Of a stretch of 64,000 bases of DNA, positions 8,317 to 42,100 are shown in pieces. Positions within the stretch are counted from its first letter, which is position 1, and every line of letters starts with the position of its first letter. Under the pieces are notes generated by a model. That model had not been told where the DNA came from. It did no database searches and was given only the letters and a program-made list of their open reading frames with translations. The stretch is from Bosea vaviloviae (lineage in GTDB: Bacteria; Pseudomonadota; Alphaproteobacteria; Rhizobiales; Beijerinckiaceae), in assembly GCF_001741865.1 (NCBI RefSeq), contig NZ_CP017147.1, positions 2,967,001 to 3,031,000 on the forward strand, in the 5' to 3' direction. Position numbers and translations under genes: made by a program.

Positions 8317-9066
8317 ATGCAACATCAAGTCGTATCCCGCGATGAATGGCTCTTAGCCCGCAAGACCCATCTCGCCCACGAAAAGGCGTTCACTCGGCAG
8401 CGCGATGCCTTGAGCGCCGAGCGGCGCGCCTTGCCCTGGGTCAGGGTCGACAAGGACTATGTCTTCGAGGGGCGCGATGGCCGCCTGACGCTGGCGGATC
8501 TGTTCGGCGAAAACAGCCAGCTCGTGATCTATCATTTCATGTTCGGGCCGGGCTGGACGGAGGGCTGCTCGGGCTGCTCCTTCGTCTCCGACCATTTCGA
8601 CGGTGCCAATCTTCATCTGAAGCACCATGACGTCAGCCTGGTGGCGGTCTCGCGCGCGCCCTTCGCCGAGTTCCAGGCCTTCAAGCGGCGCATGGGGTGG
8701 GATTTCGACTGGGTCTCCTCGGCCGGCAGCGACTTCAACTACGATTTCCACGTCTCGCCGAGCCCAGCCGAACAGGCCGCCGGCCGCTATGAATACAATT
8801 ACGAGACGCGTGACGGGGAGGGCGGCGAGATGCCTGGCTTCTCGGTGTTCTATCGCAACGAGCAGGGCGAGATCTTCCATACCTACTCGTCCTATGAGCG
8901 CGGCTGCGACCTGCTCGTCGGCGCCTATAACTTCCTCGACATGACGCCGAAGGGCCGCAATGAGGACGAGATCATGGACTGGATGCGCCATCATGATCGC
9001 TACGAGGACAAACCCGCCGCGAAGGGGACCCCCGAGCCGGCGACCGCGAGCGCCTGCTGCAGCTGA
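8317..9066 (+). CDS. DUF899 thioredoxin-like family protein
   Basis: 249 residues. The DUF899 hallmarks are present: RRALPWVRVDKDYVF, LADLFGENSQLVIYHFMFG, and the GCSGCSFVSDHFDG loop that stands where thioredoxins have their CxxC. The end carries TASACCS with a Cys pair. The family is cytosolic and of uncertain biochemical role, thought to be thioredoxin-fold. It follows the ArsR/SRPBCC pair on the same strand and may belong to the same stress-type cluster. Confidence 0.92.
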   Translation: MQHQVVSRDEWLLARKTHLAHEKAFTRQRDALSAERRALPWVRVDKDYVFEGRDGRLTLADLFGENSQLVIYHFMFGPGWTEGCSGCSFVSDHFDGANLHLKHHDVSLVAVSRAPFAEFQAFKRRMGWDFDWVSSAGSDFNYDFHVSPSPAEQAAGRYEYNYETRDGEGGEMPGFSVFYRNEQGEIFHTYSSYERGCDLLVGAYNFLDMTPKGRNEDEIMDWMRHHDRYEDKPAAKGTPEPATASACCS

Positions 9067-9481
9067 CCGGCCGCATGAGATATCCCGCAGCCCTCATCCC
9101 GAGGAGCGGGCGCGGCCTGCGTCTCGAAGGATGCTCCAGCTTGCAGGCGAGCCTCCTGGAGCATGCTGCTTACGCTCGGAAACGCCGCGTCATCCTGGAC
9201 AAGCGGCGAAGCCGCGCAGCTCCGGGATCCATCGGAGGGCTCAGCACTCTACGATGGATCCCGGGACATCGCTGCGCGAAGCCCAGGACGACGGCGCGGT
9301 TGCGAGCCTAAGCAGCCTGCTCCAGGCGAATGGCTCCTCAGGATGAGGGCTGGAGTTTCCAAATGGGCTCTGAGCCCGTGCCGCGGCGTTTTGGCGCCCG
9401 CTTCATCGAGTGTGGCGCTGGCTGCCGGTTCTTTCCAACCGGTCTCGAACTAACCCGCCTCGAACCTATGGGAGTGAAACC
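9067..9481. repeat. Gene-free stretch with an interspersed inverted repeat
   Basis: Begins with a CCCTCATCCCGAGGAGCGGG-type arm near 9090 and ends with the inverse arm CTCCTCAGGATGAGGGCT near 9335-9353, then GGAGTTTCCAAATGGG. Related pieces occur at 15965-15980, 34726-34756 and 47178-47235. GGATCCATC...GATGGATCC arms lie inside. No coding sequence is supported. Confidence 0.6.
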
Positions 9482-10192
9482 ATGATGTATGTGCAGGGAT
9501 TCGTCGTCGCCGTTCCGGCCGCGAACAAGGAGGCCTATCGCAAGCATGCCGCTGAGGCCGCCCCGATCTTCAGGGAGTTCGGCGCGACCCGCATCGTCGA
9601 GGCCTGGGGCGACGACGTCCCCGACGGCAAGCTGACCGACTTCAAGGGCGCGGTGCAGGCGACGCCAGACGAGGTCGTCGTCTTCTCCTGGCTCGAATTT
9701 CCCGACAAGGCTGCCGCCGACGCCGCAAATGAGAAGATGATGAGCGACCCGCGCATGGAGGAGATGGGCGCGTCCATGCCCTTCGACGGCAAGCGCATGA
9801 TCCATGGCGGCTTCGCCTCGCTCGCCCAGCAGGGCGCCCGCGGTGGCATGGCCTATGTCGACGGCATGGTCGCCGCGGTTCCGGCCGACAAGAAGGAGGC
9901 CTATCGCGACTTCGCCAGGGATCATGGCGCGGTTTTATGCGAACACGGCGCCACCCGCGTCGTCGACAGCTGGGGCGAGGATGTCCCCGACGGCAAGCTC
10001 ACCGATTTCAAGCGGGCGGTGAAGGCGACGGGTGACGAGAAGGTGGTTTATTCCTGGATCGAGTGGCCCTCAAAAGAGGTCCGCGATGCCGGCTGGCAGA
10101 AGGTCATGGCCGATCCGCGGATGCAGCGCGAGATGCCCTTCGACGGCAAGCGCTTGATCCATGGCGGCTTCGCGCCGATCCTCGACGCCTGA
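9482..10192 (+). CDS. Tandem double-domain DUF1428 protein
   Basis: 236 residues made of two DUF1428 domains in tandem, about residues 1-118 and 120-236. Each repeats the same landmarks: [11 protein letters not shown] / [30 protein letters not shown] / [14 protein letters not shown], and [11 protein letters not shown] / [11 protein letters not shown]. Most family members have a single domain of about 120 residues that adopts a dimeric ferredoxin-like (dimeric alpha-beta barrel) fold, so this protein may be a covalently fused dimer. GGGAG precedes the ATG. It follows the DUF899 gene in the same orientation. Function unknown. Confidence 0.92.
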
Positions 10193-10210
10193 GGCCGACG
10201 CCTTCGGCGG

Positions 10211-10422
10211 GGCGCGGGGAACCCCTCTCCCGCATCGAAGTCGGGTTTACCCGACTTCGACACTCTGAGTGCTGAACCCGGGTATACCCGGGTTCAGTGA
10301 GAGGGGCAGGGGTGAGGGTGTGCCCTCTCAGTAGAAGGCGCAGCGGCGCGGTTGCGCCCCAACAATCAGCGGCAGGCCCTCATCCCTGCCCTTCTCCCAT
10401 CCGGGAGAAGGGTTCCCCGCGA
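10211..10422. repeat. Cluster of palindromic repeats
   Basis: Between outer CCCCTCTC/GAGAGGGG arms lie a 26-base palindrome with TCGAAGTCGGGT arms (10235-10260), CACTCTGAGTG (10261-10271), and a 26-base perfect palindrome with CTGAACCCGGG arms (10272-10297). A second unit (about 10338-10422) with CCCTTCTCCCATCCGGGAG recurs at about 21694-21778. These are REP-like elements between the DUF1428 gene and the convergent SMP-30 gene. The rest of 10193-10574 shows no gene. Confidence 0.75.
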
Positions 10423-10574
10423 CGCCTCTCGACGAGGTGCGCAGCCTGGAGAATAACGCCATCGGTCATTGCTGAAGGCCGTCAGTGAAAGGCCATCCGC
10501 TTGGCTGCCGGAATGACGGAGAAGCCCCGGAGCGGCACGCCCTGGGGCTCCTCCATGAGTGACATCAGGCTGAT

Positions 10575-11801
10575 TCAGCCCGGCCCGGCGCCCTGCGTGC
10601 CGAGATAGACCGCGTAGATCGACTGGCTTGCGGCCATGAACAGCCGGTTGCGCTTGGGGCCGCCGAAGCAGATGTTGCCGCAGATTTCCGGCAACCGGAT
10701 GCGGCCGATCAATTTGCCCTCGGGGTTGAACACCGTGACGCCGTTATAGCCGACGGCGCGGCCGGCATTGGACGAGGCCCAGAGATTGCCCTCGACATCG
10801 CAGCGCAAGCCGTCCGGCCCGCAATTGATGCCGTCGATCACGCAATTCGAGAACAGCTTCTGGTTCGAGAGCTTGTTGTCGGCGCCGACATCGAAGACAT
10901 GGATGTCGCCCTTGCCGCCCGGCCCGGTGTCGCCCGGTCCCTTGCCGGTCGAGGCGACGTAGAGCTTCTTGTAATCGGGCGAGAAGCACAGGCCGTTGGG
11001 GTCGGGCACCTGCTGCTCGGTGACCACGAGGTCGATGCGCCCGCTCGGGTCCATCCTGTAGCAGTTCGTCGGCAGTTCGCGCTTGGCGAGGCCCACCCCC
11101 GGCGGCTGGCCGAGTCGCGGATTGATCTTGCCATTGGCGTTGCTCGGGCCGCCGGCCGCGTCCGGTGCGCCCTCATAGAGCTGGCCGCCATAGGGCGGGT
11201 CGGTGAACCAGTAGCTGCCGTCGGGATGAGCGACGATGTCGTTGGGCGAGTTCAGCTTCTTGCCTTGGAAAGCGTCGGCCAGCACGGTGGCCGAGCCGTC
11301 GAGCTCATAGCGCACGACGCGGCGGTTGAGATGCTCGCAGGAGAGCTGCCGGCCCTGGAAGTCGAAGCTGTTGCCGTTGCTGTTGCCCGAGGGCGTGCGG
11401 AAGACGCTGACATGCCCGTCATCCTCGATCCAGCGCAGTTGCCGGTTGTTGGGAATGTCGCTCCAGACCAGGTAGCGCCCCTGCGCGTTCCAGGCCGGCC
11501 CTTCCAGCCAGAGCCCGCCGGTCCAGAGCCGCTTGATGGCGCTGTTGGGCTGCGCCAGGCCGTTGAAGGAGGGATCGACCGCGATGATGTCGGGGTCCCA
11601 GAAATAGGTCGTAGGCGCGCCGCGCGGGCTGAAATCGCGCGGCGGGTTGGTGACGGTGGTCGGCGGTGCGGCGGGGGTGGCTGCAGTCTGCGCCAGAACG
11701 GGGCCGGCTGCCGCGGCGAGCACGCCGGCGCCGGTCGCTCTGATCAGGGCTCGCCGCGAAAGCGCGCCTTGCTGGGATGTCGCTTCATAGGGGTCTGTCA
11801 T
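10575..11801 (-). CDS. SMP-30/gluconolactonase-like secreted protein (Tat signal)
   Basis: About 408 residues from ATG 11801, chosen because GGGAGG lies five bases upstream; another ATG is directly before it. The N-terminus has SRRALIRATGAGVLAAAAGP, a twin-arginine signal followed by AQ cleavage, so it is exported folded. The rest is an SMP-30/LRE-like six-bladed propeller: LWTGGLWLEGPAWNAQGRYL, NGNSFDFQGRQLSCEH, LNSPNDIVAHPDGSYWFTDP, and DGLRCDVEGNLWASS. Proteins of this family are metal-dependent sugar lactonases or related hydrolases. Substrate not predictable. It is followed on the opposite strand by an unrelated permease. Confidence 0.9.
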   Translation of the reverse strand: MTDPYEATSQQGALSRRALIRATGAGVLAAAAGPVLAQTAATPAAPPTTVTNPPRDFSPRGAPTTYFWDPDIIAVDPSFNGLAQPNSAIKRLWTGGLWLEGPAWNAQGRYLVWSDIPNNRQLRWIEDDGHVSVFRTPSGNSNGNSFDFQGRQLSCEHLNRRVVRYELDGSATVLADAFQGKKLNSPNDIVAHPDGSYWFTDPPYGGQLYEGAPDAAGGPSNANGKINPRLGQPPGVGLAKRELPTNCYRMDPSGRIDLVVTEQQVPDPNGLCFSPDYKKLYVASTGKGPGDTGPGGKGDIHVFDVGADNKLSNQKLFSNCVIDGINCGPDGLRCDVEGNLWASSNAGRAVGYNGVTVFNPEGKLIGRIRLPEICGNICFGGPKRNRLFMAASQSIYAVYLGTQGAGPG

Positions 11802-21465: not shown

Positions 21466-22054
21466 GTGTGATGACTTGATCTGGGCTTGCCCCATGACTG
21501 TCCAGTTCGCCGCGAGCGCCCGATCGAAAAGCTCCTTTCATTGAAGGCTTTCCAGCGGGCGGTGACGAATGAGACAGGCGCGGGGAACCCTTCTCCCGTG
21601 TGGGAGAAGGGCAGGGATGAGGGCAGGCCAGACAACCAGATCGCGCAAGCGGTTCCGCATCATGTCCTGCGCTTTCAGGATGAAGCCCGCGCTGCGGCGC
21701 GGTTCGCGCCTCAACAATCAGCGGCACACCCTCATCCCTGCCCTTCTCCCATCCGGGAGAAGGGTTCCCCGCGCCCTTCATCGGGCACTTCGCTTCATCA
21801 CGCCCGCGACGGGAGAGCCGTGCATGATCCGCTCAGGGGCCATCTCGTGATGGAAGGGCTCCCTTTGACCAAGCCTCCTCCGGCCCGAGATTCTCGGGGC
21901 AAGCCCGAGAACGACGCGCTAGGATGGATCCCTGTGTCTGCGCGGAGCTGCGTCCTTGGGCCGGCAAGGCTCCATCCTCTAAACAGGGTACACTCTCTTC
22001 TTTTAGGCAACCCGTTCGCATCCAACCTGTTCGAATCATCGTGAGGCAAGACGC
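21466..22054. repeat. 589-base gene-free stretch with REP-like palindromes
   Basis: Holds a unit at 21578-21624 (GGGGAACCCTTCTCCCGTG with its inverse arm) and one at 21727-21774 (CCCTTCTCCCATCCGGGAG). The flank 21486-21577 reappears inverted at about 54464-54560, including TTCGCCGCGAGCGCCCGAT. The last 100 bases before the NadC-like gene have no obvious repeat and probably contain its promoter. No coding sequence is supported. Confidence 0.75.
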
Positions 22055-22891
22055 ATGTATGACCGCTTCTCCGCACTTCGCATGATCGACCTCTGGCTGG
22101 CGGAGGACATTGGCTTCTTCGACCTGACGGCCCAGCTGATGATCGATCCGAAAGCCCGGGCCACCTTTCACATGAATGCGCGCGAGCCGATCACGGTCGC
22201 CGGCATAGAGGTCGCCGCCGCCGTCTTCACGCGCTACGAGCCGTCCTGCCAGATCGAGCTGAAGGTCGAGGACGGACAAGCCGTCGACAAGGGCGCGGTG
22301 CTGATGATCGTCAGCGGGCCGGCCCAGGCTCTGCTCACCGCCGAGCGCGTGGCGCTCAACATTGTCCAGCGTCTGTCGGGCATCGCGACCGAGACCGCGA
22401 AATATGCCTCCGCCATCGCCCACACCAAGGCGCGGCTGCTCGATACCCGCAAGACGACGCCGGGCCTGCGGATGCTGGAGAAGCATGCCTCCGCCTGCGG
22501 CGGTGCGCTCAATCACCGGCTCGGCCTCGACAATGGCGTGATGCTCAAGGACAACCACATCGCGGTCTGTGGCAGCATCTCCGAGGCGGTTCGCCGGGCG
22601 AAGCTGAAGGTTCCGGCGCTGACCAAGATCGAGGTCGAATGCGACCGGCTGGAGCAGGTCCGCGAGGCTCTGGCGGCAGGCGCCGATGTGATCATGCTCG
22701 ACAACATGGCGATCCCTGCGATGCGCGAGGCCGTCCTCTTCGTCGCTGGCCGGGCGGCGCTGGAGGCCTCGGGCGGGATCAGGCTCGATACGATCGCCGC
22801 GATCGCCGAGACCGGCGTCGACTACGTCTCGACGAGCCGGCCGCTGCAGTCGGCGCCGGCGGTCGATATCGGCCTCGACGAGCCGCGCTGA
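22055..22891 (+). CDS. Quinolinate phosphoribosyltransferase-like protein (NadC paralogue)
   Basis: 278 residues. All main NadC landmarks are present: AEDIGFFDLTAQ near 16-26, QRLSGIAT (105-112), DTRKTTPGLR (130-139), GGALNHRLGL (149-158), KDNH (165-168), KIEVE (191-195), DVIMLDN (211-217), and EASGGI (237-242). The known reaction of the family is quinolinate + PRPP to nicotinate mononucleotide + CO2 + PPi in the cytosol. The presence of DTRKTTPG and KDNH separates it from the related ModD group. No nadA or nadB is adjacent. Instead it leads an operon with a PRPP-generating fusion enzyme and an ABC importer, so a salvage role or a substrate other than endogenous quinolinate is likely. 22 bases separate it from the next gene. 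Confidence 0.88.
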   Translation: MYDRFSALRMIDLWLAEDIGFFDLTAQLMIDPKARATFHMNAREPITVAGIEVAAAVFTRYEPSCQIELKVEDGQAVDKGAVLMIVSGPAQALLTAERVALNIVQRLSGIATETAKYASAIAHTKARLLDTRKTTPGLRMLEKHASACGGALNHRLGLDNGVMLKDNHIAVCGSISEAVRRAKLKVPALTKIEVECDRLEQVREALAAGADVIMLDNMAIPAMREAVLFVAGRAALEASGGIRLDTIAAIAETGVDYVSTSRPLQSAPAVDIGLDEPR

Positions 22892-22913: not shown

Positions 22914-25010
22914 ATGAAACCCGGCATTCTCTTCGTCATTGTTGGTGCGAGCGGTGTCGGGAAGGACACGCTGATCGCCGGCGCGATGACCACTCTTTCG
23001 GCGTCAGGTCTTGCCGCACCAGCTCTTGCCGCGCCAGCTCTTGCAGCGTCAGGCCGCTATGTCGCCTGCCGGCGGGTCATCACGCGTGCGGAAGGGCCGG
23101 GCGAGGATCACGAGCCCGTCTCTCCCCAAGAATTCGAACGCCATGCCGCGGCCGGCGGCTTCCTGCATCGCTGGCAGGCGCATGGGCTGAATTATGGGCT
23201 GCCGATTGAGCTGCGCGCCGAGCTGGAGGCCGGGCGCCATGTCGTCGCCAATGGCTCGCGCGGGGCATTGGCGGGGCTCATGGACATCGTGCCGCGCCTC
23301 GTCGTCATCGAGATCACGGCGCCACGCGCAAGATTGCGGGAGCGCCTCCTGGCGCGTGGCCGCGAGAGCGCCGCCGAGATCGAGCTGCGCCTCGACCGCA
23401 GCCCCGATCCGCTGCCGGACGGGATCGAGCTCCTGACGGTCGCCAACGATGCGAGTGTCGAGGCCGGGATCGAAAAACTTGTCGCGGCGATCGAGACCGC
23501 CGCCGCGCGCATGGCGCTGCGCCGCATGCCGATCCATGCGGGGCGCACGAACATGGCCTTCCTGCCGCTGGACAGCAGCGCGGTGCCGGCCGCGACCTAT
23601 GCGGGCAGCGGGCGCATCGAGCTCATGGCCGGCGGGCGCAGCGTGCGGGCCGCGGTCAGCATGGTCGAGCCGGGCACGCTTCTCGGTGATGACGAGATCG
23701 GCCTCTCGGTCGAGGCCTTCGCTGCGCTCGCGCTGCCGGAGGGCCACAGGGTCTCGATCAGGCGGACGCCGACACCCGGCAGCCGCGCGCTGCTCTGCCG
23801 CAAGATCGATGGCGGGCGCCTCTGCGCCGACGAATACGAGACGCTGTTCCGCGACATCGTCGAGGATCGCTATCCCGAGAGTGAGGTCTCGGCCTTCCTG
23901 GTCAAGACGATCCAGAACCTCGACGATGTCGAGGTCGTCGCTGTGGCGCAGGCGCGCTGCCGCTTCATGGCCAGGATCGCCTGGGACGCGCCGATCGTCG
24001 TCGACAAGCATTCGCTCGGCGGCATTCCCGGCAGCCGCATCACCCTGATCGTGGTCCCGATCGTCGCCGCCCACGGGCTGCTGATGCCGAAGACCTCGTC
24101 GCGCGCCATCACCTCGGCATCGGGCACGGCCGATGCGATGGAAGCCGCCTGCCGGGTCGACCTGAATGCTGCCGATGTCGCCCGCGTCGTGCGTCAGACC
24201 GGCGCCTGCATCGCCTGGAACGGCCGGCTCAACCATTCCGCGCTCGACGACGTGGTCAATGCGATCACGCGGCCGCTCGGCCTCGACAGCAACCGCTGGT
24301 CGGTCGCCTCGATCATGTCGAAGAAGTGGACCTCGGGATCGACCCATGTCGCGGTCGATTGTCCCTATGGCCCCAACGCCAAGCTGAAGACCCTGGCTGA
24401 TGCCCGGGAACTCTGCCGCGTCTTCGAGCTGGTCGGCGTCGGGCTTGGCCTCACGGTGCGGGCGCTGGGCACTGACGGCAGCAGTGCGATCGGCCGCGGC
24501 ATCGGGCCCGCTCTGGAGCTGCGCGATGTCGGCCTGGTGCTGGATTGCGACCCGGCGGCGCCCAGTGACCTGCGCGAGAAGGCCCTGACCTTCGCCGCAG
24601 AGATCCTGTCCTTCGATCCCGCGATCGGCGATTCCACACGCGGACGGGCGCGCGCCGAGGCGCTGCTGGCGTCGGGCGCGGCACGCGAGCGCTTCGACCG
24701 CATCGTAGCGGCGCAGGGACGCACGGCCCGGACCGAGCCGGGACCCCTGACCCATATCGTGCGGGCCGCGCAGGCGGGCCACGTCACCGCCATCGACGGC
24801 TGGCAATTGGCCGGCGTCGCGCGCAGCGCCGGCGCGCCGGCGGTCAAGGCCGCAGGCATCGATCTTGCGACCTCGGTCGGACAGCGCGTCGCGGCAGGCG
24901 GGGCGCTCTACACCATTCACGCGACGGGAGCGGCCGATCTGGACGCGGCCATCGAATTGTCGTCGAGACGATCGGGCATCACGCTGAGCGAGGTTTTCGA
25001 GACGGTCTGA
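22914..25010 (+). CDS. Fusion: ribose 1,5-bisphosphate kinase (PhnN) + AMP/NMP phosphorylase (DeoA superfamily)
   Basis: 698 residues, two enzymes in one chain. Residues 1 to about 195 are PhnN-like: P-loop GASGVGKDTL (11-20), RRVITRAEGPGEDHEPVS, HGLNYGLP, and VVANGSRGAL. PhnN phosphorylates ribose 1,5-bisphosphate to PRPP. Residues from about 205 to the end match archaeal AMP phosphorylase: an N-terminal beta domain, then DGGRLCADEYETLFRDIVEDR, VVDKHSLGGIPGSRITLIV, MPKTSSRAITSASGTADAME, SKKWTSGSTHVAVDCPYGP, and TDGSSAIGRGIGPALE. That enzyme releases ribose 1,5-bisphosphate from NMPs, precisely the PhnN substrate, so the chain could turn NMP + Pi + ATP into base + PRPP + ADP. A small APAL tandem repeat (31-45) is an insertion in the PhnN part. 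Co-operonic with a PRPP-using NadC paralogue. Confidence 0.9.
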   Translation: MKPGILFVIVGASGVGKDTLIAGAMTTLSASGLAAPALAAPALAASGRYVACRRVITRAEGPGEDHEPVSPQEFERHAAAGGFLHRWQAHGLNYGLPIELRAELEAGRHVVANGSRGALAGLMDIVPRLVVIEITAPRARLRERLLARGRESAAEIELRLDRSPDPLPDGIELLTVANDASVEAGIEKLVAAIETAAARMALRRMPIHAGRTNMAFLPLDSSAVPAATYAGSGRIELMAGGRSVRAAVSMVEPGTLLGDDEIGLSVEAFAALALPEGHRVSIRRTPTPGSRALLCRKIDGGRLCADEYETLFRDIVEDRYPESEVSAFLVKTIQNLDDVEVVAVAQARCRFMARIAWDAPIVVDKHSLGGIPGSRITLIVVPIVAAHGLLMPKTSSRAITSASGTADAMEAACRVDLNAADVARVVRQTGACIAWNGRLNHSALDDVVNAITRPLGLDSNRWSVASIMSKKWTSGSTHVAVDCPYGPNAKLKTLADARELCRVFELVGVGLGLTVRALGTDGSSAIGRGIGPALELRDVGLVLDCDPAAPSDLREKALTFAAEILSFDPAIGDSTRGRARAEALLASGAARERFDRIVAAQGRTARTEPGPLTHIVRAAQAGHVTAIDGWQLAGVARSAGAPAVKAAGIDLATSVGQRVAAGGALYTIHATGAADLDAAIELSSRRSGITLSEVFETV

Positions 25011-25105
25011 GCACCGCCGGGCTTGGCTATCCACGAGTCTTGGCTATCAACTGCGGCCGCGTCCTCCCCTTCGGAGCACGGGCGGCGATTTTCGGGAGAA
25101 ATCGT

Positions 25106-26095
25106 ATGGCTTTCAGGACACGCAGGAGCGCTCGATCCCTGGTGGCGGCGTTCGCCTTCGCTGCGACCTCGATCTTGTCCGGCCCGGCTGGCGCGGTCGA
25201 AATCTCGATCACGCAATGGGGCGCGAGCCTCTATGGCGCTCCGGTGGCTGTTGCAATCGAGCAGGGCGATTTCAAGAAGGCCGGCATCGACGTGACCGGC
25301 GTGATCGGTTCGGGTGGCGGCGGCACCAGCGTTCGCAACATCCTGGCGAGCGATGTGCCCTATGGCGAGGTCGCCACGGCCGCTGCCCTGGCGGCCGCCA
25401 GGCAGGGGCTGCCGATCGTGCTGATCCATTCCGGCACCCGCACGGTCGCCGAGGCCAGCCTCGTGACGATGCCGAACTCGGAGATCAAGAGCCTCGAGGA
25501 CCTCGTCGGCAAGAAGGTCGCGATCACCTCGCCGAAATCGACCTCCGAAATGGTCTTCCTGATGGAGCTGGCGGCGAAGGGCATCGACGCCTCGAAGATC
25601 CAGCGCATCGCGTCGGGCGGCTATACGCAGGGGCTGACCATGCTGGAGCAGGGAGCCGTCTCGGCCGCCGTCCTGATCGAGCCGCTCTCGATCCTGCGCA
25701 AGGATCGCTACCGCACGGTGATCGCGGCCAAGGGCTTGCTGCCGGCGATGACGACCTCGGTCGGCATCACCACCCGCGACTTCGCCAAGGCCAAGCCCGA
25801 GCAGCTGAAGGCCCTGATCGCCGGCCGCCGCATGGGCGTGCAGGCGATCTACCGCGCGCCGGAAGCCGCCTCCGACATGGTCGCCAAGCAGTTCAACATG
25901 GATCCGGGCCTGGCCAAGGTTGCGATGCTGAACATGATCGAGCCGCAGATGTGGAGCGAGGGCGCCTTCAGCATGGCCGAGCTGAACCGGATCGGCGAGG
26001 GCCTCAAGCTCGTCGGCGAAATCTCCGCCTTGCCGGATTGGGGGGCGCTGATCGACCGCTCCTTCCTGCCGGCCGACCTCAAGGCCGACCAATGA
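25106..26095 (+). CDS. NitT/TauT-type ABC transporter substrate-binding protein
   Basis: 329 residues from ATG 25106, supported by GGGAGAA upstream. Sec signal peptide to about residue 30 (FAFAATSILSGPAGA), then an NMT1/THI5-like periplasmic fold: WGASLYGAPVAVAIEQGDFKKAG, GSGGGGTSVRNILASDVPYG, and SLEDLVGKKVAITSPKSTSE. Related proteins bind nitrate, sulfonates, aromatic acids or thiamine/riboflavin precursors, so the ligand is open. It is the third gene of the NadC/PhnN-phosphorylase operon. Its stop overlaps the ATPase start (ATGA). Confidence 0.93.
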   Translation: MAFRTRRSARSLVAAFAFAATSILSGPAGAVEISITQWGASLYGAPVAVAIEQGDFKKAGIDVTGVIGSGGGGTSVRNILASDVPYGEVATAAALAAARQGLPIVLIHSGTRTVAEASLVTMPNSEIKSLEDLVGKKVAITSPKSTSEMVFLMELAAKGIDASKIQRIASGGYTQGLTMLEQGAVSAAVLIEPLSILRKDRYRTVIAAKGLLPAMTTSVGITTRDFAKAKPEQLKALIAGRRMGVQAIYRAPEAASDMVAKQFNMDPGLAKVAMLNMIEPQMWSEGAFSMAELNRIGEGLKLVGEISALPDWGALIDRSFLPADLKADQ

Positions 26096-26943
26096 CGGTC
26101 GTCGCCATGGCGTCACGCGACGCGCCGAAAGCCGCAGCCGAGCCGCCGGCCGCGAGCCTCAAGGGCGTGACGCGCCATTACCGGTTTCCCGGCGGCGGCA
26201 AGACGCTGCATGCGCTGGGGCCGATCGATCTCGACCTCCGGCAGGGCGAGTTCTTCTCGGTCGTCGGCCCGTCGGGCTGTGGAAAATCGACGCTGCTCGA
26301 CGTGCTGGCGGGGCTGAGCCCGCCCAGCGATGGCACGGCGAGCTTCGAGGGCAAGCCGATCGCCGGCGTGCCCGACGGCATCGGCGTCGTCTTCCAGGAG
26401 GACGCCTCGTTTCCCTGGCTGACGGTCGAGGCCAATGTCGCCTTCGGCCTGAAGCGGGCCGGAATCGGCCAGGCCGAGATCGACCGCCGGGTCGATTACG
26501 CCGTCGGCTTCATGGGCCTGCGCGATTTCCGGCAATCCTATCCGGCGCAGCTCTCGGGCGGCATGCGTCAGCGCGTCTGCATCGCACGCACGCTCGTGCT
26601 GCAGCCGCGGCTGATCCTGCTCGACGAGCCTTTCGGCGCGCTCGACCAGCAGACCCGGCTGATCATGGGCGACGAATTGCTGCGGCTCTGGCGCGAGACC
26701 AAGGCGACCGTGCTGCTGATCACGCATTCGCTCGACGAGGCCGCGATGCTGGCCGATCGCGTCGGGGTGATGTCGGCGCGGCCGGGCCTGTTCATCGACA
26801 TCATCGAGACCGGCTGGCCAAGCGACCGCGACAGCCGGATCGTCGCCGATCCGCGCTTCGGTGAGATGACCGGCCGAATCTGGGAGAAGCTGCGAGCCGA
26901 GACGATGAAGCACATGCAGACGCAAGGCGCCGGACCGCGATGA
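26092..26943 (+). CDS. NitT/TauT-type ABC transporter ATP-binding protein
   Basis: 283 residues. Walker A GPSGCGKST, Q-loop VVFQEDASFPWLTV, signature LSGGMRQR, Walker B LILLDEPFGALD and H-loop THSLDEA are all intact, in SsuB/TauB style. It couples ATP hydrolysis to uptake through the two permeases that follow. Start and stop codons overlap both neighbours by four bases (ATGA), so the block is tightly coupled translationally. Confidence 0.95.
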   Translation: MTVVAMASRDAPKAAAEPPAASLKGVTRHYRFPGGGKTLHALGPIDLDLRQGEFFSVVGPSGCGKSTLLDVLAGLSPPSDGTASFEGKPIAGVPDGIGVVFQEDASFPWLTVEANVAFGLKRAGIGQAEIDRRVDYAVGFMGLRDFRQSYPAQLSGGMRQRVCIARTLVLQPRLILLDEPFGALDQQTRLIMGDELLRLWRETKATVLLITHSLDEAAMLADRVGVMSARPGLFIDIIETGWPSDRDSRIVADPRFGEMTGRIWEKLRAETMKHMQTQGAGPR

Positions 26944-27689
26944 AATATCGCGCGCTCGTCACCCTGGCCGTCGTGCTGGCCTGCGTGCTGGCGCTGGAAC
27001 TGGCCTGCGCCTTGGGCTGGGTCGCCAGGACCGTGATCATCCCGCCCAGCGAGATGGTCGGCAGCCTCAGCGACATCCTGTGGTCGGGCGAGTTCAACCG
27101 CGCGATTCTCCTGACCCTGACCAATGTGATGATCTCGGTCGTGATCTCGATTGCGGCGGGGTTCGTGCTGGGCGTGGCGATCCACGCCAGCGATTTTCTG
27201 CGGCGCGCGGTCGAGCCCTATCTCGCGAGCTATTACGCCGTGCCGACCTTCATCTTCTATCCGGTCTTCATCGTGCTGTTTGGCGTCAACAGCGCCGCCA
27301 TCATCGCCATCGCCGTGCTGCTCTCGATCGTGGCGATGATCACCGCCACAATGAACGGCCTCGACCGGATTCCGACCGTGCTGCTGCGCACCGCCCGGAT
27401 CATGCGCCTGTCGCCGGTCAAGACCGCGCTCATGATCCAGCTGCCGGCGGCGGCGCCGTATTTCTTCACCGGGGCGCGATTGAGCGTGGCCTACTCCTTC
27501 ATCGGCGTCATCGCCTCGGAGTTCATCCTCTCGGGCGACGGGCTCGGCTACGCCATCGCCTATGCCTACAATAATTTTGAAAACCGGCAGATGTACGGGC
27601 TGATGCTGCTGATCGTGATCGCGGTCACGCTCGTCAATATGACGCTCGACAGGCTCGACCGCCGCCTGCAATCGCGCCTGCGCCGCTGA
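26940..27689 (+). CDS. NitT/TauT-type ABC transporter permease 1
   Basis: 249 residues, about six membrane segments. The coupling motif is RTARIMRLSPVKTALMIQLPAAAPY, with PTFIFYPVFIVLFG before it. It is paired with the next gene, also a permease, so the importer uses two different channel subunits where many NitT/TauT systems have one. Confidence 0.92.
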   Translation: MKYRALVTLAVVLACVLALELACALGWVARTVIIPPSEMVGSLSDILWSGEFNRAILLTLTNVMISVVISIAAGFVLGVAIHASDFLRRAVEPYLASYYAVPTFIFYPVFIVLFGVNSAAIIAIAVLLSIVAMITATMNGLDRIPTVLLRTARIMRLSPVKTALMIQLPAAAPYFFTGARLSVAYSFIGVIASEFILSGDGLGYAIAYAYNNFENRQMYGLMLLIVIAVTLVNMTLDRLDRRLQSRLRR

Positions 27690-27697
27690 GGTCCAAG

Positions 27698-28486
27698 ATG
27701 CCGAGCAAAGCCATGCCGAGCAAAACTCTGCCAGGTGAAGCCTTGCGAAACGTCGTGCCGCCGATCGTGCTGGCCCTGGTCCTGATCCTGTGCTGGCAGG
27801 GTCTGCACCTCGCCACCGCATCGGGCGCGATCAGTTCGCCCGCCGCGACCTTGGCGCGGCTCGTCGTACTGATGGGGAGCGGCCGCTTCTGGCTCGACGT
27901 CGTCGAGACCGGCACGGCCTTCGCCTGGGCGCTGGTGCTGTCGATCGTGCTCGGCATCGGGCTCGGCGTCGTGCTCGCTTTGCTGCGGCCGGTCGGCGAG
28001 GTGATGGAACCGATCCTGGTGACGTTCTACTCGCTGCCGAAGGTGACGCTTTATCCGCTGGTCCTGCTGATCTTCGGGCTCGGCATGCCGGCGAAGGTCG
28101 CCTTCGGCATCATGCATGGGCTCGTGCCGATCACGCTCCTGACGCGCAACGCCATCACCCAGTTGAAGCCGGTCTATCTGCGCACGGCCAAGGTGATGCG
28201 GCTCAGTGCGTTCGAAGTGGTGCGATCAGTCGTGCTGCCGGCGATCATTCCCGAACTCGTCGCCGGCATCCGGATCGGTTTCTCGCTGAGCCTGCTCGGC
28301 GTCCTGATCGGTGAGATGTTCGCCTCGAAGCGCGGCCTGGGCTTCACCGCCGTCAACGCGATGGGCCTGGGCGACCTCGACACGATCATGGCGATCGGCG
28401 TGTTCCTGGCGCTTTTCGCGGTGCTGGCGAATGGCGGGCTCCTGTCGCTGGAGCGCGCCATTCGCCACCGCTCGGCCGGCCGCTAG
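27698..28486 (+). CDS. NitT/TauT-type ABC transporter permease 2
   Basis: 262 residues, about six membrane segments, with YSLPKVTLYPLVLLIFGLG and the coupling loop RTAKVMRLSAFEVVRSVVLP. The N-terminus MPSKAMPSKTLPGEA holds a short duplication (MPSKA/MPSKT), so the exact start among two ATGs is uncertain. It begins eight bases after permease 1 and is the last gene of the cassette; a hairpin repeat starts in its stop codon. Confidence 0.92.
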   Translation: MPSKAMPSKTLPGEALRNVVPPIVLALVLILCWQGLHLATASGAISSPAATLARLVVLMGSGRFWLDVVETGTAFAWALVLSIVLGIGLGVVLALLRPVGEVMEPILVTFYSLPKVTLYPLVLLIFGLGMPAKVAFGIMHGLVPITLLTRNAITQLKPVYLRTAKVMRLSAFEVVRSVVLPAIIPELVAGIRIGFSLSLLGVLIGEMFASKRGLGFTAVNAMGLGDLDTIMAIGVFLALFAVLANGGLLSLERAIRHRSAGR

Positions 28487-36144: not shown

Positions 36145-37080
36145 TTCCGCCACAGCGTTCGCTGACATGACCTTTTGCGCATCCAGCTATAGTTCGGTGA
36201 CCACCTGTAACTCGACGATCTCGCATATAAGGCGGCTTGCTTAGCTCATTTTGACAAACACGCTCGGCGATTTCCCATTCTCTCCTACAATCCGGCGTAT
36301 CTTCTCTCCGTGGACCAGAGCTTCCGCCTCCACCGCCAAAGGTCCGTCGACAGAAATCGTAGATCTGTTGGGCAACAATCGCGTCGGCGCCAGCTGCTGC
36401 TCCAATGGCCGCGATACCCGTAGGAGTGACGAGGGCACCCGCAAACAGCCCCTTCCGATCGGTCAGCATCATCGGCGATCCGTTAAGCATAGACGGAAGG
36501 GCCATCGACGTTACCGAGCGGGTCGGTCTGGAGGTATCGCCCGGTGGTTGGGTCGTAGGTACGGTGCCAGTTATAGTGCAGGCCGGTCTCGAGCTGGAAC
36601 CATTGCCCGGGGAAGCGGGCGTCGAGCGTGGCGGCGCCGGTGATCGAGACGACCTCGCCATAGGGCTTGTAGACGGCGTCCCAGACCAGGGCCTGGCTGG
36701 CATTGGTCATTCGGACCGGCCGGTCGAGATGGTCGGCATGGACGAACAAGGTCGTCGGTGTCGCCGTATCGACATCGGCCACCACCGCCAGCGGGATCGC
36801 GCGTTGGGCAATGCCGCGCCTGGGCCCGTTCAGCGAAGGCAGTTGCGCGCGGGCTGACGGGTCGTTGTCGTTCTCGGCCGAGCCGAGCTTGCCGGAGGGG
36901 CCTGACGCCGCGTTGTCGTTGGCGGGACGCTGCGTTGGGCCTGTGTCGGAGCCGAGGTCGTCGACCTCGAGCCAGACATACTCCCGGATCGTCGCTCCAG
37001 AGGCCGGCCTGCTGCGTTGTGCGAAAAACGCCAGGCCGACGCGCCTTGCGTATCGGTGACGATGTTGCCCGCCCCGTCAT
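36131..37080 (-). pseudogene. Displaced Rhs C-terminal module 3 (frameshifted, internal deletion)
   Basis: A partial copy of the rhs core. 36483-36990 matches the intact gene closely (VVADVDTATPTTLFVHADHL to DPLGNVDGPSVYA). A deletion near 36995 removes about 35 codons of core upstream. At about 36483-36490 a five-base deletion relative to the intact copy turns VYAYASGSPMM into VYA-stop. In the shifted frame a tip continues: PMMLTDRKGLFAGALVTPTG, IVAQQIYDFCRRTFGGGGGS, then a Cys-containing domain ending GHVSERCGGNAID at 36131. The tip has no good start of its own, so it is expressed only after recombination or frameshifting. Confidence 0.75.
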
Positions 37081-37278
37081 GGCCGCGAGGGACTACGCAA
37101 GCCATGTCGGGAGCATGAGGGGGTGAGCCAATTGGGCGGCACGAGCCCAGCGAGATCGGACCAGCAGGCCTAGGCAAGGAGGGCTGCGAGTGCGACCCAA
37201 ACGGGTCTGTCGTCCAGCTCCGCGACAACGCAATGGAGATTAGAATAGATCAAAACAAATAATTCTGTAAAATTATAG

Positions 37279-37593
37279 TCAATCAACCTTTCTAGCAATG
37301 GACGATTCCGTGAATGTAAAAATCATCTGAGCGACTCCCGGTCGTCTCAAATTCACAAGCTTCAAATGGCCAGATCTGCCAGTTGACTCCATAAATGTAT
37401 CAAATTCCACCTCATTCTCAGAGTGCTTTATGTTCGATATAACATACTCTTCACCGTCAACGTGGTCGAATCCCTTAATTTTCAGAGTCCCGCCTGACAT
37501 CGATATGACATACTCAGATCGGGCATCATCATCCTCCGATCTCCAGCGACCAAGAAGAGGATTCGGGAAATTAAGATGTATCAAGTCAGCCAT
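37279..37593 (-). CDS. Candidate immunity protein for Rhs C-terminal module 2
   Basis: 104 residues, AT-rich, no signal peptide. Beta-rich looking sequence with LLGRWRSEDDDARSEYVISM near the start and GFDHVDGEEYVISNI in the middle, suggesting a small beta-sandwich or lipocalin-like fold. It begins eight bases after the stop of the rhs C-terminal module at 37602-38783, the standard position for a cognate immunity gene. No family assignment from sequence alone. Confidence 0.7.
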   Translation of the reverse strand: MADLIHLNFPNPLLGRWRSEDDDARSEYVISMSGGTLKIKGFDHVDGEEYVISNIKHSENEVEFDTFMESTGRSGHLKLVNLRRPGVAQMIFTFTESSIARKVD

Positions 37594-37601
37594 TTTTATC
37601 T

Positions 37602-38783
37602 CTACTTTTTATCTCTAGATTCATCGAATCCAGGGGGTTTCTGCTTGCTGATTTGCTTGCCCGTTTGAGGATCTTTTACGATAACTTTATTTGGGTCGCT
37701 TGGATCGGGGCGCATGTGCTTGAAGGGGTTTTTGGTACCATAAATGCTGCCAGCATAATTACGTTCACCTTTACCCATGCAGAAGTCGATGATCTGCTTG
37801 GCCGCCAGCGCACCTAATCCCGCTACTGCGCCAACAGCGACCGCGCCGGCAGGCGTCGCAGCAAGTACAGGCAGCACGAATAGCCCCTCTTGATCGGTCC
37901 ACATCATTGGCGATCCGCTGGCGTATGCATAGACGGAAGGCCCATCGACGTTACCGAGCGGGTCGGTCTGGAGGTATCGTCCTGTTGTTGGGTCGTATGT
38001 GCGGTGCCAGTTGTAGTGCAGGCCGGTCTCAAGCTGGAACCACTGGCCGGGGAAGCGGGCGTCGAGCGTGGCTGCACCGGTGATCGAGACGACCTCGCCA
38101 TAGGGCTTGTAGACGGCGTCCCAGACCAGGGCCTGGCTGGCATTGGTCATCCGGACCGGCCGGTCGAGATGGTCGGCATGGACGAACAAGGTCGTCGGGC
38201 TGGCGGTGTCGACATCGGCCACCACCGCCAGCGGGACCGCGCGCTGGGCAATGCCGCGCCTGGGCCCGTTCAGCGAAGGCAGCTGCGTGCGCGCTGACGG
38301 GTCATTGTCGTTCTCAGCCGAGCCGAGCTTGGAGCCCGACGCCGCATTGTCGTTGGCCGGCCGCGAGGTCGGGCCTGTGTCGGAGCCGAGGTCGTCGACC
38401 TCGAGCCAGACATATTCCCGGATCGTCGCGCCAGAGGCCGCATTCGCCTCCGCCAGGAGATGGCCGGCGGTGTCGTAGATCAGATGCGTCGTGCCAGACG
38501 GCGTCGTGTTGGTCACCGCCCGGATCGCCAGCCGCTCCAGCCCGTCATAGGTGTAGGCGCCCTTCAGCGTTCCACCCACGCTCGCCTGCGACAGACGCCC
38601 CGCCGCGTTGTGCGTGAAGGTCCAGGCCGCGCTGCCGCGCGTATCGGTTGCGATGTTGCCCGCCCCGTCATGGCCGAAGGTCCGCGTCACCGTTCCATCC
38701 GTCGTAACCTGCACGATCCGGTTCGAGGTCGCCTCATAGCCATCACCCGATCGATCTCGTGCAAAGCCGCCCGCCGCCAACAT
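37602..38783 (-). CDS. Displaced Rhs C-terminal module 2 (orphan core plus toxin tip)
   Basis: 393 residues in an open frame, lacking the N-terminal two thirds of an Rhs protein. From about residue 15 (GYEATSNRIVQVTTDGTVTR) it follows the intact rhs gene closely up to TDPLGNVDGPSVYAYASGSP. The tip diverges there: an Ala/Gly-rich hydrophobic linker (LPVLAATPAGAVAVGAVAGL), DFCMGKGERNYAGS, then NPFKHMRPDPSDPNKVIVKD and QISKQKPPGFDES at the end. That basic ending is of a kind seen in contact-dependent toxins of nuclease type, but no catalytic residues can be named. Whether the orphan is translated is unclear; it is probably a donor for recombination into the full-length gene. Confidence 0.8.
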   Translation of the reverse strand: MLAAGGFARDRSGDGYEATSNRIVQVTTDGTVTRTFGHDGAGNIATDTRGSAAWTFTHNAAGRLSQASVGGTLKGAYTYDGLERLAIRAVTNTTPSGTTHLIYDTAGHLLAEANAASGATIREYVWLEVDDLGSDTGPTSRPANDNAASGSKLGSAENDNDPSARTQLPSLNGPRRGIAQRAVPLAVVADVDTASPTTLFVHADHLDRPVRMTNASQALVWDAVYKPYGEVVSITGAATLDARFPGQWFQLETGLHYNWHRTYDPTTGRYLQTDPLGNVDGPSVYAYASGSPMMWTDQEGLFVLPVLAATPAGAVAVGAVAGLGALAAKQIIDFCMGKGERNYAGSIYGTKNPFKHMRPDPSDPNKVIVKDPQTGKQISKQKPPGFDESRDKK

Positions 38784-38798
38784 GCCGATAATAGTAAC

Positions 38799-39170
38799 TT
38801 AAAGCGGCCTTTCTGCATAGAACGAATATATAAACAGAAGCGCGTTCTTTTCGGAGTCTGTCAATTTTAAATCATCTTCATTTTGTGCCAAACGAAACTT
38901 CCGATCGAGTCCCAACATCTCATTGTAAATGGCCACCGGGAGCGGCGCTAAAGAATCTACGAAGCAATCGACAGATCCAGTCCCCATTTTTCCAAGGCCA
39001 GTTGTTCTGTCAATCTGGACATATTTCTGATTTGTGACAGTTCTGGACTCAATATATTTTTCATTAAGCCCAGTTACCAAACAAATCAAACTGGCGTCAT
39101 TGCTTGTTTTAGCGTGAAATATGTCGCCAACAACAATTCTATCAAGTAATTTTCTTTGACTGTTCGACAT
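38799..39170 (-). CDS. Candidate immunity protein for the full-length Rhs protein
   Basis: 123 residues, AT-rich, no signal peptide. Begins MSNSQRKLLDRIVVGDIFHA and ends EKNALLFIYSFYAERPL. The ATG-to-stop gap with the rhs gene is one base (rhs ends at 39172), so the pair is co-transcribed. It then precedes orphan module 2, giving the order toxin, immunity, old toxin tip, old immunity. I do not recognise a named family. Confidence 0.7.
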   Translation of the reverse strand: MSNSQRKLLDRIVVGDIFHAKTSNDASLICLVTGLNEKYIESRTVTNQKYVQIDRTTGLGKMGTGSVDCFVDSLAPLPVAIYNEMLGLDRKFRLAQNEDDLKLTDSEKNALLFIYSFYAERPL

Positions 39171-39171
39171 T

Positions 39172-42100
39172 TTATTTTCCTATCAGATACGGCGCTAGAA
39201 TCTTGACTTGATCTGATCCGGAATCATCCTCTATACCGAGAATCTTTACGGCGCATGGTCTGCAGACAATTCTGTCGCCGATACAATGCGTCCCGCTCAT
39301 ACCACGTGATCCTCCACTGCGGCAGTCGCCGCCTGTACACCGCAGGGCTCCACTACTACTCGCTAACCCCTCGCGATCGGTCAGCATCATTGGCGATCCG
39401 CTTGCGTAAGCATAGACGCTCGGGCCATCGACGTTACCGAGGGGGTCGGTCTGGAGGTATCGTCCTGTTGTTGGGTCGTAATGGCGGTGCCAGTTATAGT
39501 GCAGGCCGGTCTCGAGCTGGAACCATTGTCCGGGGAAGCGGGCGTCGAGCGTGGCAGCGCCGGTGATCGAGACGACCTCGCCATAGGGCTTGTAGACGGC
39601 GTCCCAGACCAGGGCCTGGCTGGCATTGGTCATCCGGACCGGCCGGTCGAGATGGTCGGCATGGACGAACAAGGTCGTCGGTGTCGCCGTATCGACATCG
39701 GCCACCACCGCCAGCGGGATCGCGCGTTGGGCAATGCCGCGCCTGGGCCCGTTCAGCGAAGGCAGTTGCGCGCGGGCTGACGGGTCGTTGTCGTTCTCGG
39801 CCGAGCCGAGCTTGCCGGAGGGGCCTGACGCCGCGTTGTCGTTGGCGGGACGCTGCGTTGGGCCTGTGTCGGAGCCGAGGTCGTCGACCTCGAGCCAGAC
39901 ATATTCCCGGATCGTCGCGCCAGAGGCCGCATTCGCCTCAGCCAGGAGATGGCCGGCGGTGTCGTAGATCAGATGCGTCGTGCCAGACGGCGTCGTGTTG
40001 GTCACAGCCCGGATCGCCAGCCGCTCCAGCCCGTCATAGGTGTAGGCGCCCTTGACGCTGCCGCCCACGCTCGCCTGCGACAAACGACCCGCCGCGTTGT
40101 GCGTGAAGCTCCAGGCCGAGGCGCCTTGCGTGTCGGTGATGAGGTTGCCCGCCCCGTCATGGCCGAAGGTCCGCGTCACCGTTCCATTCGTCTCGACCTG
40201 CACGATCCGGTTCGAGGTCGCCTCATAGCCCGTCACCTTCGTCGTCGTGGTGGCGCCCTGCGTCAGGATCTCATGCGTCCGGTTGCCGCCCGCGCCATAA
40301 TAATAGGTCAGATCGCCCCACACACCCGTCGCGTTCTGCAGGCGCCGCGCCGGCGAATAATAGAAGCCCTGATGCGGCGGCGGCGAGACGTCGTCGTAAT
40401 TGTAGATATTGGTCAGGTTCAGGCCATTATCGGTGCGGTCATGGAAGCGCTTGATCGTCGCCACGCTGGTCGCCGTGTTCTCGACCAGGAGCAGGTTGAG
40501 CTGGTCGTCGGCGGTGAAGGTGCGCCACAGGCTCAAGCCGTTGCCATAGCTCAGCGACTGCAGGTCCCCAAAAGGCTGGTAGGCGACGCCCGACGCCAGC
40601 ACCGCGCTCGCCGCCGCCGCGTTTTGCTTCGTCGTGACGCCGCCGACCCGGCCCGTCGCGTCGCGGACGACAGCGACGATGCGGCCCGAGGGATAGGTGA
40701 TCTGCGTCACCTTGTCGGCGAGGTTGTAGGCGTAAGCAACGACATAGCTCTTGCCGGCGATGACCCGGGTTTCCGAGGTGACGTTGCCGCGCGCGTCATA
40801 AACCCAAGCCGTCGTGCCGGAGGCGTCGCTCATCCCGGTCAAGCGGCCCTTGCCCTTGTTGCCGCCGGTGACGTCGTCATAGCTCCAGGTCACGTTCAGC
40901 CCCGTCGCTGACGGGAAGGAGCGCGCGGTGATGCGCCCGGCATTGTCGAAAGCCTGGTTCATCACCACGCCGCGGCCATCGGTCTTCTGCGTGATCAGGC
41001 CGCGCGCGTCGCGCTGGTAGACAACCGTGCCGCTATCGGGAGAAGCTGCCTGGATCACCTCGCCAAAACCGTTGCGCACATAAGCCGTGGTGACGTTGCG
41101 GGCATCCTTGTAGGAGGTGATGACATCGACGCCGTTGCGCGTCACCTCGACCTTCTGGCTCTCCTCATCCGTCTCGCTGATCAATCGGTTCAGCGCGTCA
41201 AAGCCGTAATTGTACAGGTTCGAGCGCGGATCGGTCACCGCGACCAGATTGTCCGTCCGGTCATAGCCGAACTGCCAGGTGCTGCTGCCCGCGCCGATCG
41301 CGCGCAGGAGCCGGCCAAGCTCGTCAAAGGTCTGCGTGCGCGCGAAGCTCGTGCTCGCATCGGCCTTCTTGCGCGTGATCGAGGTCGCCCCGCCCATCGC
41401 GTCGCGGACATAATTGGTGGTCTCGCCCGCATTGTTCGTCACCGTCGTCAGCCGGCGCGCATCGTCATAGCTGAAGGACTGCCAGCTGCTATCGGCCTGC
41501 GTGATCTTGGTGACCTGGCCGGCGCCGTCATAGACGATCGTCGTGACCGCGGCGGAGCCGGTCGAATCCGCGGTCACCGTCAGGAGGCGGCCGCGCCCGT
41601 CATAGCCCAGCGCCGTCTTCACCCCATTGGCATCGGTCACCAGCGTCGGCTGGCCCCGGTCATTGACCGTGTCGACCGTCGTGACCTGCCCGAGCTCGTT
41701 CGTGACCGTCTGAACGAAGCCCTGCGCGTCGTAGGTGTAGGAGACCGTGTCGCCCGTTCCCGCCAGCGGCCCGTCCACCGAAGCGAGCAAGCCTGTCGTC
41801 CCGTAAGTATACGCCCAGACCCGCATCTGCCCGCCGGTCGCGTACGGCACCGTCTGCGTCGTCGTGTCCGTCAACGTCCGCGAGGTCAATTGACCCGACG
41901 CGTTCCAGACATAGTCCGTCGTCAGGCCGGGGTCGACAACCTGGGAGGGCACACGCCAGGTCGCGTTCCAGGTGATGGTCGAGGTTGCAGCCGAAGCGGT
42001 TCCCGAGCCCCGTGTGATCGAGGTCGGCTGGCCGATCGTGTCGTTGACATAGGTTGTCACCCGCCCTTCGGCATCCGTCACCGAGGCCATGAAGTCGTTC

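Follow-up and report, generated by a model that had tools for sequence, protein, structure and literature searches.

A stretch of 64,000 nucleotides from Bosea vaviloviae (contig NZ_CP017147.1, positions 2,967,001 to 3,031,000 of the forward strand; hereafter the window, in whose numbering coordinates are given) carries a gene that fuses a PhnN-like ribose 1,5-bisphosphokinase to a nucleoside-monophosphate (NMP) phosphorylase and lies behind nadC. The identity of the domains, the near-constant pairing of such fusions with nadC, and a link to nicotinate catabolism that is both physical and genomic were observed directly. We hypothesize, with moderate confidence, that NadC and the fused enzyme together operate a phosphoribosyl-carrier cycle in which quinolinate loses CO2 to become nicotinate, which is then catabolised. 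The genes and domains concerned are as follows.

22055..22891, + strand: nadC, quinolinate phosphoribosyltransferase, 278 aa; TIGR00078 at 320.6 bits (cut-off 198.4); the only nadC of the genome
22914..25010, + strand: PhnN / NMP-phosphorylase fusion; ATG start, 698 aa, single uninterrupted frame
22914..23507, + strand: PhnN-like ribose 1,5-bisphosphokinase domain, about residues 1-198; TIGR02322 at residues 4-194; guanylate-kinase fold match to 6wct
23511..23783, + strand: AMP-phosphorylase-type N-terminal domain, about residues 200-290, separating the kinase domain from the catalytic phosphorylase part
23784..25007, + strand: catalytic phosphorylase part, about residues 291-698; SRAITS at 396-401; R348, N436, H441, N449, P609

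In the proposed cycle, NadC would convert imported quinolinate and phosphoribosyl pyrophosphate (PRPP) to nicotinate mononucleotide (NaMN), CO2 and pyrophosphate; the phosphorylase half would cleave NaMN with phosphate to nicotinate and ribose 1,5-bisphosphate; and the PhnN half would use ATP to turn ribose 1,5-bisphosphate back into PRPP, releasing ADP. The net reaction would be quinolinate + ATP + phosphate -> nicotinate + CO2 + ADP + pyrophosphate, with PRPP acting only catalytically, the released nicotinate passing into 6-hydroxynicotinate catabolism, and the fusion preventing loss of ribose 1,5-bisphosphate, possibly by the channelling that a first-pass annotation of the stretch had proposed. 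The first and last steps are the known NadC and PhnN reactions, and the middle step amounts to the reaction of an NMP phosphorylase on a different base; phosphate cleavage of a pyridinium nucleotide should be favourable, as in the phosphorolysis of nicotinamide riboside. From domain content and gene context, we infer that these proteins carry out each reaction of the cycle, including the use of NaMN by the phosphorylase.

The fused enzyme and its family

The open reading frame contains GASGVGKDTL, VVDKHSLGGIPGSRITLIV and KTSSRAITSASGTAD, the strings from which the first-pass annotation had proposed a PhnN-type kinase fused to a full phosphorylase, and family matches to both halves within the one frame uphold that proposal. 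Residues 4-194 match the NCBIfam PhnN model TIGR02322 at 148.7 bits (E 1.4e-43), under its cut-off of 156, and residues 200-692 match NF003338, named 'thymidine phosphorylase', at 569.4 bits, over its cut-off of 434. The phosphorylase also passes TIGR02645 (440.6 bits, cut-off 434.6) and lies under the cut-off of the AMP phosphorylase model TIGR03327 (375.1 bits of 535). Models of DeoA and PyNP give only 105-154 bits, far under their cut-offs (TIGR02643, 112.5 of 570.7; TIGR02644, 142.3 of 409.05). The P-loop GxxGxGKD and further residues of the PhnN half, some of which we take to be PhnN motif positions, are invariant across 20 aligned fusions.

The solved sequences nearest to the second part are those of Thermococcus kodakarensis AMP phosphorylase (4ga5 and 4ga4, titled 'putative thymidine phosphorylase' there). 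An AlphaFold model of the fusion, built from a 20-row alignment (mean pLDDT 86.6, pTM 0.70), led a fold search to 4ga5 (E 1.6e-42) and then 4ga4, and its N-terminal part to guanylate kinase 6wct (E 1.7e-11). The model and the 4ga5 fold match bear out the expectation of an N-terminal domain between the two catalytic parts, which is delimited by the NF003338 match from residue 200, the 4ga5 alignment from residue 234, and 503 columns aligned by fold. The annotation's view of PhnN as an enzyme that converts ribose 1,5-bisphosphate to PRPP is published, according to the available portion of PMC9700705.

An assembly artefact can be ruled out, since 118 of the 120 best protein matches listed are 665-702 aa long, with 95-100% of the query covered; P0022 and P0115, the remaining two, are without the start of the kinase part. 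The window protein has 15 additional residues within residues 28-47 that are absent in 19 of 19 aligned relatives. This insert (22995-23054) consists of AAPAL-like repeats, and the model is least confident at residues 31-46.

For a wider view we used 80 named loci, which are the best 80 of 539 and thus a selection rather than a census; they belong to alpha-, beta- and gammaproteobacteria (L and G numbers are our handles for loci and genomes). The phylogeny called for by the first-pass annotation was run on 71 chosen rows: 35 fusions (the window protein and 34 from the named loci), 14 standalone bacterial enzymes, 13 archaeal enzymes and nine DeoA proteins. Each group falls on one side of a branch, with supports of 100, 100, 89 and 100, respectively. 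The standalone type-2 enzymes are the sister group of the fusions (support 90), with long branches joining these two groups flagged by the tool. The motif SRAITS occurs in 35/35 fusions, 14/14 standalone and 12/13 archaeal rows, the odd archaeal row differing at one position, and in 0/9 DeoA rows. In sequence terms, then, the phosphorylase half clusters with the AMP phosphorylase of archaea and the type-2 enzymes of bacteria, and not with DeoA. A DeoA-type thymidine phosphorylase identity is ruled out by the tree and the motif, in agreement with the annotation's assignment to the AMP phosphorylase type. Its further emphasis on finding such an enzyme in a bacterium did not hold: in a sample of 289 genomes of the class, only two (the own genome and G114) carry the fusion, and 38 others match the phosphorylase part alone.

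Five residues, R348, N436, H441, N449 and P609, are invariant in 35/35 fusions and present in at most 10% of the archaeal and standalone rows. Positions 436 and 449 lie at or beside what we take to be base-pocket residues, by comparison with Gln156 and Tyr168 of thymidine phosphorylase, and the alignment thereby suggests that N436, H441 and N449 sit in the base pocket. The window protein keeps all of the positions that we presume to be AMP-phosphorylase contacts, including K288 and D256; across the fusions, the K288 position is kept in 32/35, and the D256 position is D in 20/35, with E, N and A among the others.

Both halves lie in one unbroken frame in 73 of the 80 loci. Four (L107, L109, L110, L111) have PhnN and phosphorylase end to end in separate frames, as split genes or sequencing frameshifts, and three (L108, L122, L123) have the phosphorylase without a PhnN part. 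The phosphorylase N-terminal domain went undetected by search in 17/80 loci, most of which retain room for it. The PhnN and catalytic matches are merely 31-40 bp apart in L119, L120, L124 and L126, where the domain seems to have been lost, judging from this spacing; these four are fusions from Cupriavidus pinatubonensis and Caballeronia. Within the genus, 22 of 37 genomes carry the fusion, the own genome included. The window fusion is nearer to copies from Xanthobacter, Jiella and Acuticoccus (L050, L047 and the tree) than to most copies of its own genus (57-60% identity), a sequence relationship that suggests horizontal transfer of the cassette.

Among unfused relatives, a type-2 phosphorylase adjoins a PhnN-like gene, without nadC, at L196 (11176-11763 beside 9576-11069) and L198 (8392-8946 beside 9035-10615). 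In gene order, these loci show the two activities associated a second time, as separate genes. Unfused type-2 phosphorylases adjoin unfused PhnN in genomes G199 and G348. Other standalone type-2 phosphorylases (L041-L043, L199, L200, L206, L209, L211, L212) occur with PRPP-synthetase-like and metallo-beta-lactamase-like genes, neighbourhoods that may connect RNA breakdown with PRPP formation.

nadC and nicotinate-catabolism genes beside the fusion

The window NadC carries the motifs DTRKT, NHR, LKxNH and LDN, which align with three solved quinolinate enzymes; among them are residues that we take to bind quinolinate and PRPP. A ModD identity for this gene was rejected (106.1 bits, under the cut-off of 178.85), as was the idea that the genome has a further, canonical nadC, there being only this single copy.

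A nadC lies upstream of the fusion on the same strand in 76 of the 80 named loci. At two of the four others, L078 and L115, only 431 and 140 bases separate the fusion start from the edge of the sequence, a limit that does not apply to L106 and L108. The computed gap between nadC and fusion does not exceed 150 bases in either direction at 65/76 loci; six of the remaining 11 gaps are larger (210-1032), and five are negative, with a match starting inside the protein or PhnN missing. Each of the 22 genus genomes with the fusion carries a single nadC, located 16-43 bp ahead of the fusion match. In the 15 genus genomes without the fusion, nadC occurs only in G013, G023 and G036, all of which have nadA. 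In a tree that carries long-branch warnings, the linked NadCs (75 rows) form one clade with support 99, separate from 18 unlinked NadCs of the genus and order that are 38-56% identical to the window NadC. Distances among linked NadCs track those among fusions (Mantel r 0.80, 0/999 permutations, n=74). A second nadC over the cut-off is present in 12 of 26 named fusion genomes searched, drawn from the 80 loci, and in none of the other 14. Two plasmids also bear the cassette in their public annotation, ordered TAXI-TRAP-nadC-'phnN' in one and MarR / nadC-'phnN'-TctC in the other.

The loci that lack PhnN bear on the substrate of the phosphorylase. In L122 and L123, two closely similar loci from metagenome-assembled genomes, nadC is followed by the phosphorylase with no PhnN, and L108 has the phosphorylase with neither nadC nor PhnN, beside NicAB-like genes and a Bug protein. 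PhnN is thus more dispensable than the phosphorylase in these loci, which points to NaMN, the product of NadC, as the phosphorylase substrate. The first-pass annotation had named AMP as the natural substrate; the genomic context, with nadC at nearly every locus and two loci pairing it with the phosphorylase alone, instead argues for NaMN.

We searched up to 10 kb on each side of the 80 loci (less at contig ends) with 16 queries taken from fusion loci, at thresholds that we set ourselves. Genes resembling 6-hydroxynicotinate reductase were found at 20 loci, NicB-like genes at 16, other molybdenum (Mo)-hydroxylases at 10, and enamidase-like genes at nine. At least one nicotinate gene lies near 34/80 loci, a BpsR-like MarR regulator near 30/80, and either near 44/80. 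The 40 control loci were 20 kb each, with one of 11 kb; 20 of them surround an unfused PhnN and the other 20 a DeoA gene, and none of the 16 queries reached its threshold there. Fisher tests of loci against controls gave 5.8e-8 and 5.8e-11 with kinship ignored, a contrast somewhat favoured by the controls coming solely from the genus and its order, when the 80 loci reach wider.

The enamidase label rests on a match to 2vun (E 7.7e-113), and the reductase label on the plasmid annotation 'hnr: 6-hydroxynicotinate reductase', that protein having no Pfam or NCBIfam match. A conserved cluster in nicotinate degraders includes a 6-hydroxynicotinate reductase gene, according to the accessible text of PMC3511419. 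The NicB-like protein, 1187 aa long, combines molybdopterin and cytochrome c domains, an arrangement that we take to be that of NicB. The linked MarR proteins are nearest to 6pcp and 6pco, both entries of BpsR, in which four residues bind 6-hydroxynicotinate, as the excerpt available of PMC6837509 reports. Three of these, Tyr15, Arg26 and His32, are kept in 36/36 readable matches (37 were counted, with overlap between the named and unnamed sets and two from a single locus). AA_synth genes at 16/80 loci and UPF0280 genes at 20/80 recur with nicotinate genes, also at L191, and are possibly missing steps of the nicotinate pathway.

Within the genus, the association extends to whole genomes. A 6-hydroxynicotinate reductase is present in 21 of the 22 fusion genomes of the genus and in three of the 15 others (Fisher 2.8e-6, kinship ignored). 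The own genome has a nicotinate cluster (C1:4712001-4732000) with two AA_synth genes and enamidase-like, MarR, Mo-hydroxylase, reductase and UPF0280 genes. No nadA was found in this genome, so quinolinate there is not made by NadA; pncB is present in it and in 23/23 genus genomes examined. Genome G019 retains only a piece of the PhnN half (L046, 3533-4375), without nadC and with the 6-hydroxynicotinate reductase still there, and this piece is a probable remnant of the cassette.

Weighing the carrier cycle against other explanations

The pairing with nadC, often beside nicotinate-degrading genes, suggests that the cell probably uses quinolinate as food by way of nicotinate. The proposal in its full form is a novel pyridine-dicarboxylate decarboxylation, in which NadC would load the carrier, a NaMN-specific phosphorylase would free nicotinate, and the fused kinase would recharge PRPP, with quinolinate as food and an archaeal-type NMP phosphorylase re-purposed to NaMN. 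We give this full form a chance only slightly better than even.

Several observations weigh against the carrier cycle. The characterised relative cleaves AMP, CMP and UMP, as described in the portion of PMC9700705 at hand. Neither a nicotinate marker nor MarR was found in the flanks examined of 36/80 loci, nor in the 64-kb window itself, and the nicotinate cluster of the own genome is about 1.7 Mb from the window cassette. G031 (92% complete) has the fusion without 6-hydroxynicotinate reductase, and the reductase occurs in G004, G019 and G025, none of which has an intact fusion, G019 having only the PhnN-half piece. The fourth BpsR contact, His23, is kept in just 10/36 linked MarRs, being Tyr in 11 and Phe in 15. 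Finally, the sole nadC of the own genome may serve NAD synthesis, either also or only.

This last point leads to the alternative that the fusion supplies PRPP from AMP, CMP or UMP for NAD salvage, with NadC turning imported quinolinate into NaMN for NAD. Such a role would extend the published reading, in which nadC, phnN and quinolinate binders are tied to NAD metabolism (available sections of PMC11452294). With one nadC and no nadA in the own genome, quinolinate salvage could matter there, and G008 and G014 have nadA with the linked nadC only, so that the linked NadC probably can serve NAD synthesis in those genomes. However, nicotinate already supplies NAD through pncB in all of the genus genomes examined, nearly half of the fusion genomes searched have a second nadC, loci without PhnN cannot supply PRPP through the fusion, and the link with nicotinate degradation is not predicted. 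We consider NAD salvage unlikely, though far from negligible. General nucleotide salvage, in which AMP (or CMP or UMP) would yield ribose 1,5-bisphosphate and then PRPP with nadC as a passive neighbour, fits the conserved AMP-binding stretch and is attractive for the unfused relatives beside unfused PhnN (G199, G348) or beside PRPP-synthetase-like and metallo-beta-lactamase-like genes. For the fusions it seems quite improbable, as it leaves the near-constant nadC, the co-divergence of NadC and fusion, and the nicotinate genes unexplained.

A last alternative keeps the cycle and changes the compound: the linked NadC clade may have changed substrate and feed a different pyridine carboxylate into degradation. 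The distinctness of that clade and the 38-56% identity of unlinked NadCs to the window protein would agree with this, as would the ligand contact that differs in 26/36 linked regulators and the Mo-hydroxylases near some loci, which could accept other substrates. Yet the NadC motifs align with solved quinolinate enzymes, and the enamidase and 6-hydroxynicotinate reductase identities fit nicotinate; we regard a different pyridine as an outside chance. If the quinolinate cycle is correct, a function would be assigned to an alpha-, beta- and gammaproteobacterial fusion that records label PhnN only, and quinolinate would gain an entry into nicotinate catabolism. PRPP would be a recycled carrier rather than a spent donor, and NMP phosphorylases would act outside the RuBisCO III route. 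The base specificity of the family would become testable at a few fusion-only residues, and ABC, TRAP-TAXI and Bug transporters would acquire quinolinate as a testable ligand.

Transporters, surrounding genes and known systems

Downstream of the fusion, the window encodes an ATP-binding cassette (ABC) transporter.

25040..26095, + strand: ABC transporter substrate-binding protein, NMT1/SsuA type (PF09084, E 1.2e-21)
26092..26943, + strand: ABC transporter ATPase (PF00005, E 1.5e-32)
26940..27689, + strand: ABC transporter permease 1, from position and hydrophobicity; relatives beside 27/80 fusion loci
27698..28486, + strand: putative ABC transporter permease 2; beside the fusion in near relatives L031 and L033

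Comparison with L031 and L032 suggests that the true start of the substrate-binding protein is the ATG near 25106, and this protein has a distant likeness to a taurine-binding protein of solved structure. Counting each of the 80 loci once, transport genes are of ABC type in 27, TRAP-TAXI in 24 and Bug in nine, with none recognised in 20; quinolinate is the putative ligand of these linked transporters. In the near relative L031 a MarR gene stands directly ahead of nadC; the corresponding part of the window (about 21466-22022) does not align, with no MarR found, and the local regulator seems to have been lost or replaced. Another recurrent neighbour, at 15/80 loci (e.g. L088, 7854-8714), resembles an FRG-domain protein beside the plasmid cassette L216. 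Farther away, at about 36400-43800, the window has lower GC content (0.55-0.61 in several 2-kb bins) and long frames on the minus strand that resemble Rhs genes on visual inspection.

A phosphonate role for the fused PhnN was rejected: no phosphonate genes were recognised beside the fusion, and a separate PhnN of the same genome sits among genes that we take to be its phn operon. The PhnN of C-P lyase systems shares the P-loop kinase domain, from which the fusion differs in scoring slightly under the TIGR02322 cut-off and in its neighbours.

Judged by title and start of abstract, none of the papers listed from open-licence PubMed Central, mostly the top-ranked ones, describes the fusion or a quinolinate-to-nicotinate carrier cycle, and no paper there joins 'PhnN' with 'thymidine phosphorylase'. 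The domain families are known; their combination and the proposed pathway are apparently new, at least to us. The neighbourhood itself is in print: the nadC-phnN-bug27 arrangement of Variovorax and Jezberella, in the retrieved part of PMC11452294, is very probably the same cassette as that of the window, and a Variovorax plasmid record lists nadC, a TctC protein and a 'phnN' as long as the fusion. In that part of the paper, orthologs of Bug27, which binds quinolinate, are placed beside nadC and phnN; Bug27 and Bug69 bind quinolinate in vitro, though growth on quinolinate persisted after bug69 was inactivated. The arrangement is read there as NAD metabolism, with the phosphorylase half unmentioned; this half, the nicotinate link and the carrier cycle are what we did not find described.

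The nearest solved structure is the AMP (NMP) phosphorylase TK0352 of T. kodakarensis (4ga4, 4ga5, 4ga6), which shares the fold, the N-terminal and catalytic domains, and SRAITS. In contrast to TK0352, the window enzyme is fused to PhnN, lies under the TIGR03327 cut-off in a bacterial clade of its own, and has the fusion-only N436, H441 and N449 and a nadC/nicotinate context. Bacterial standalone type-2 'thymidine phosphorylases' exceed the same cut-offs as the fusion (NF003338/TIGR02645) but are without PhnN, and their neighbours in the loci examined are metallo-beta-lactamase-like, PRPP-synthetase-like or unfused PhnN genes, not nadC. Nicotinate catabolism of the Eubacterium barkeri/Azorhizobium type, with 6-hydroxynicotinate reductase and enamidase, is represented by genes adjoining many fusions as well as in the own genome; that route begins at nicotinate, to which the proposed module would add a supply from quinolinate.

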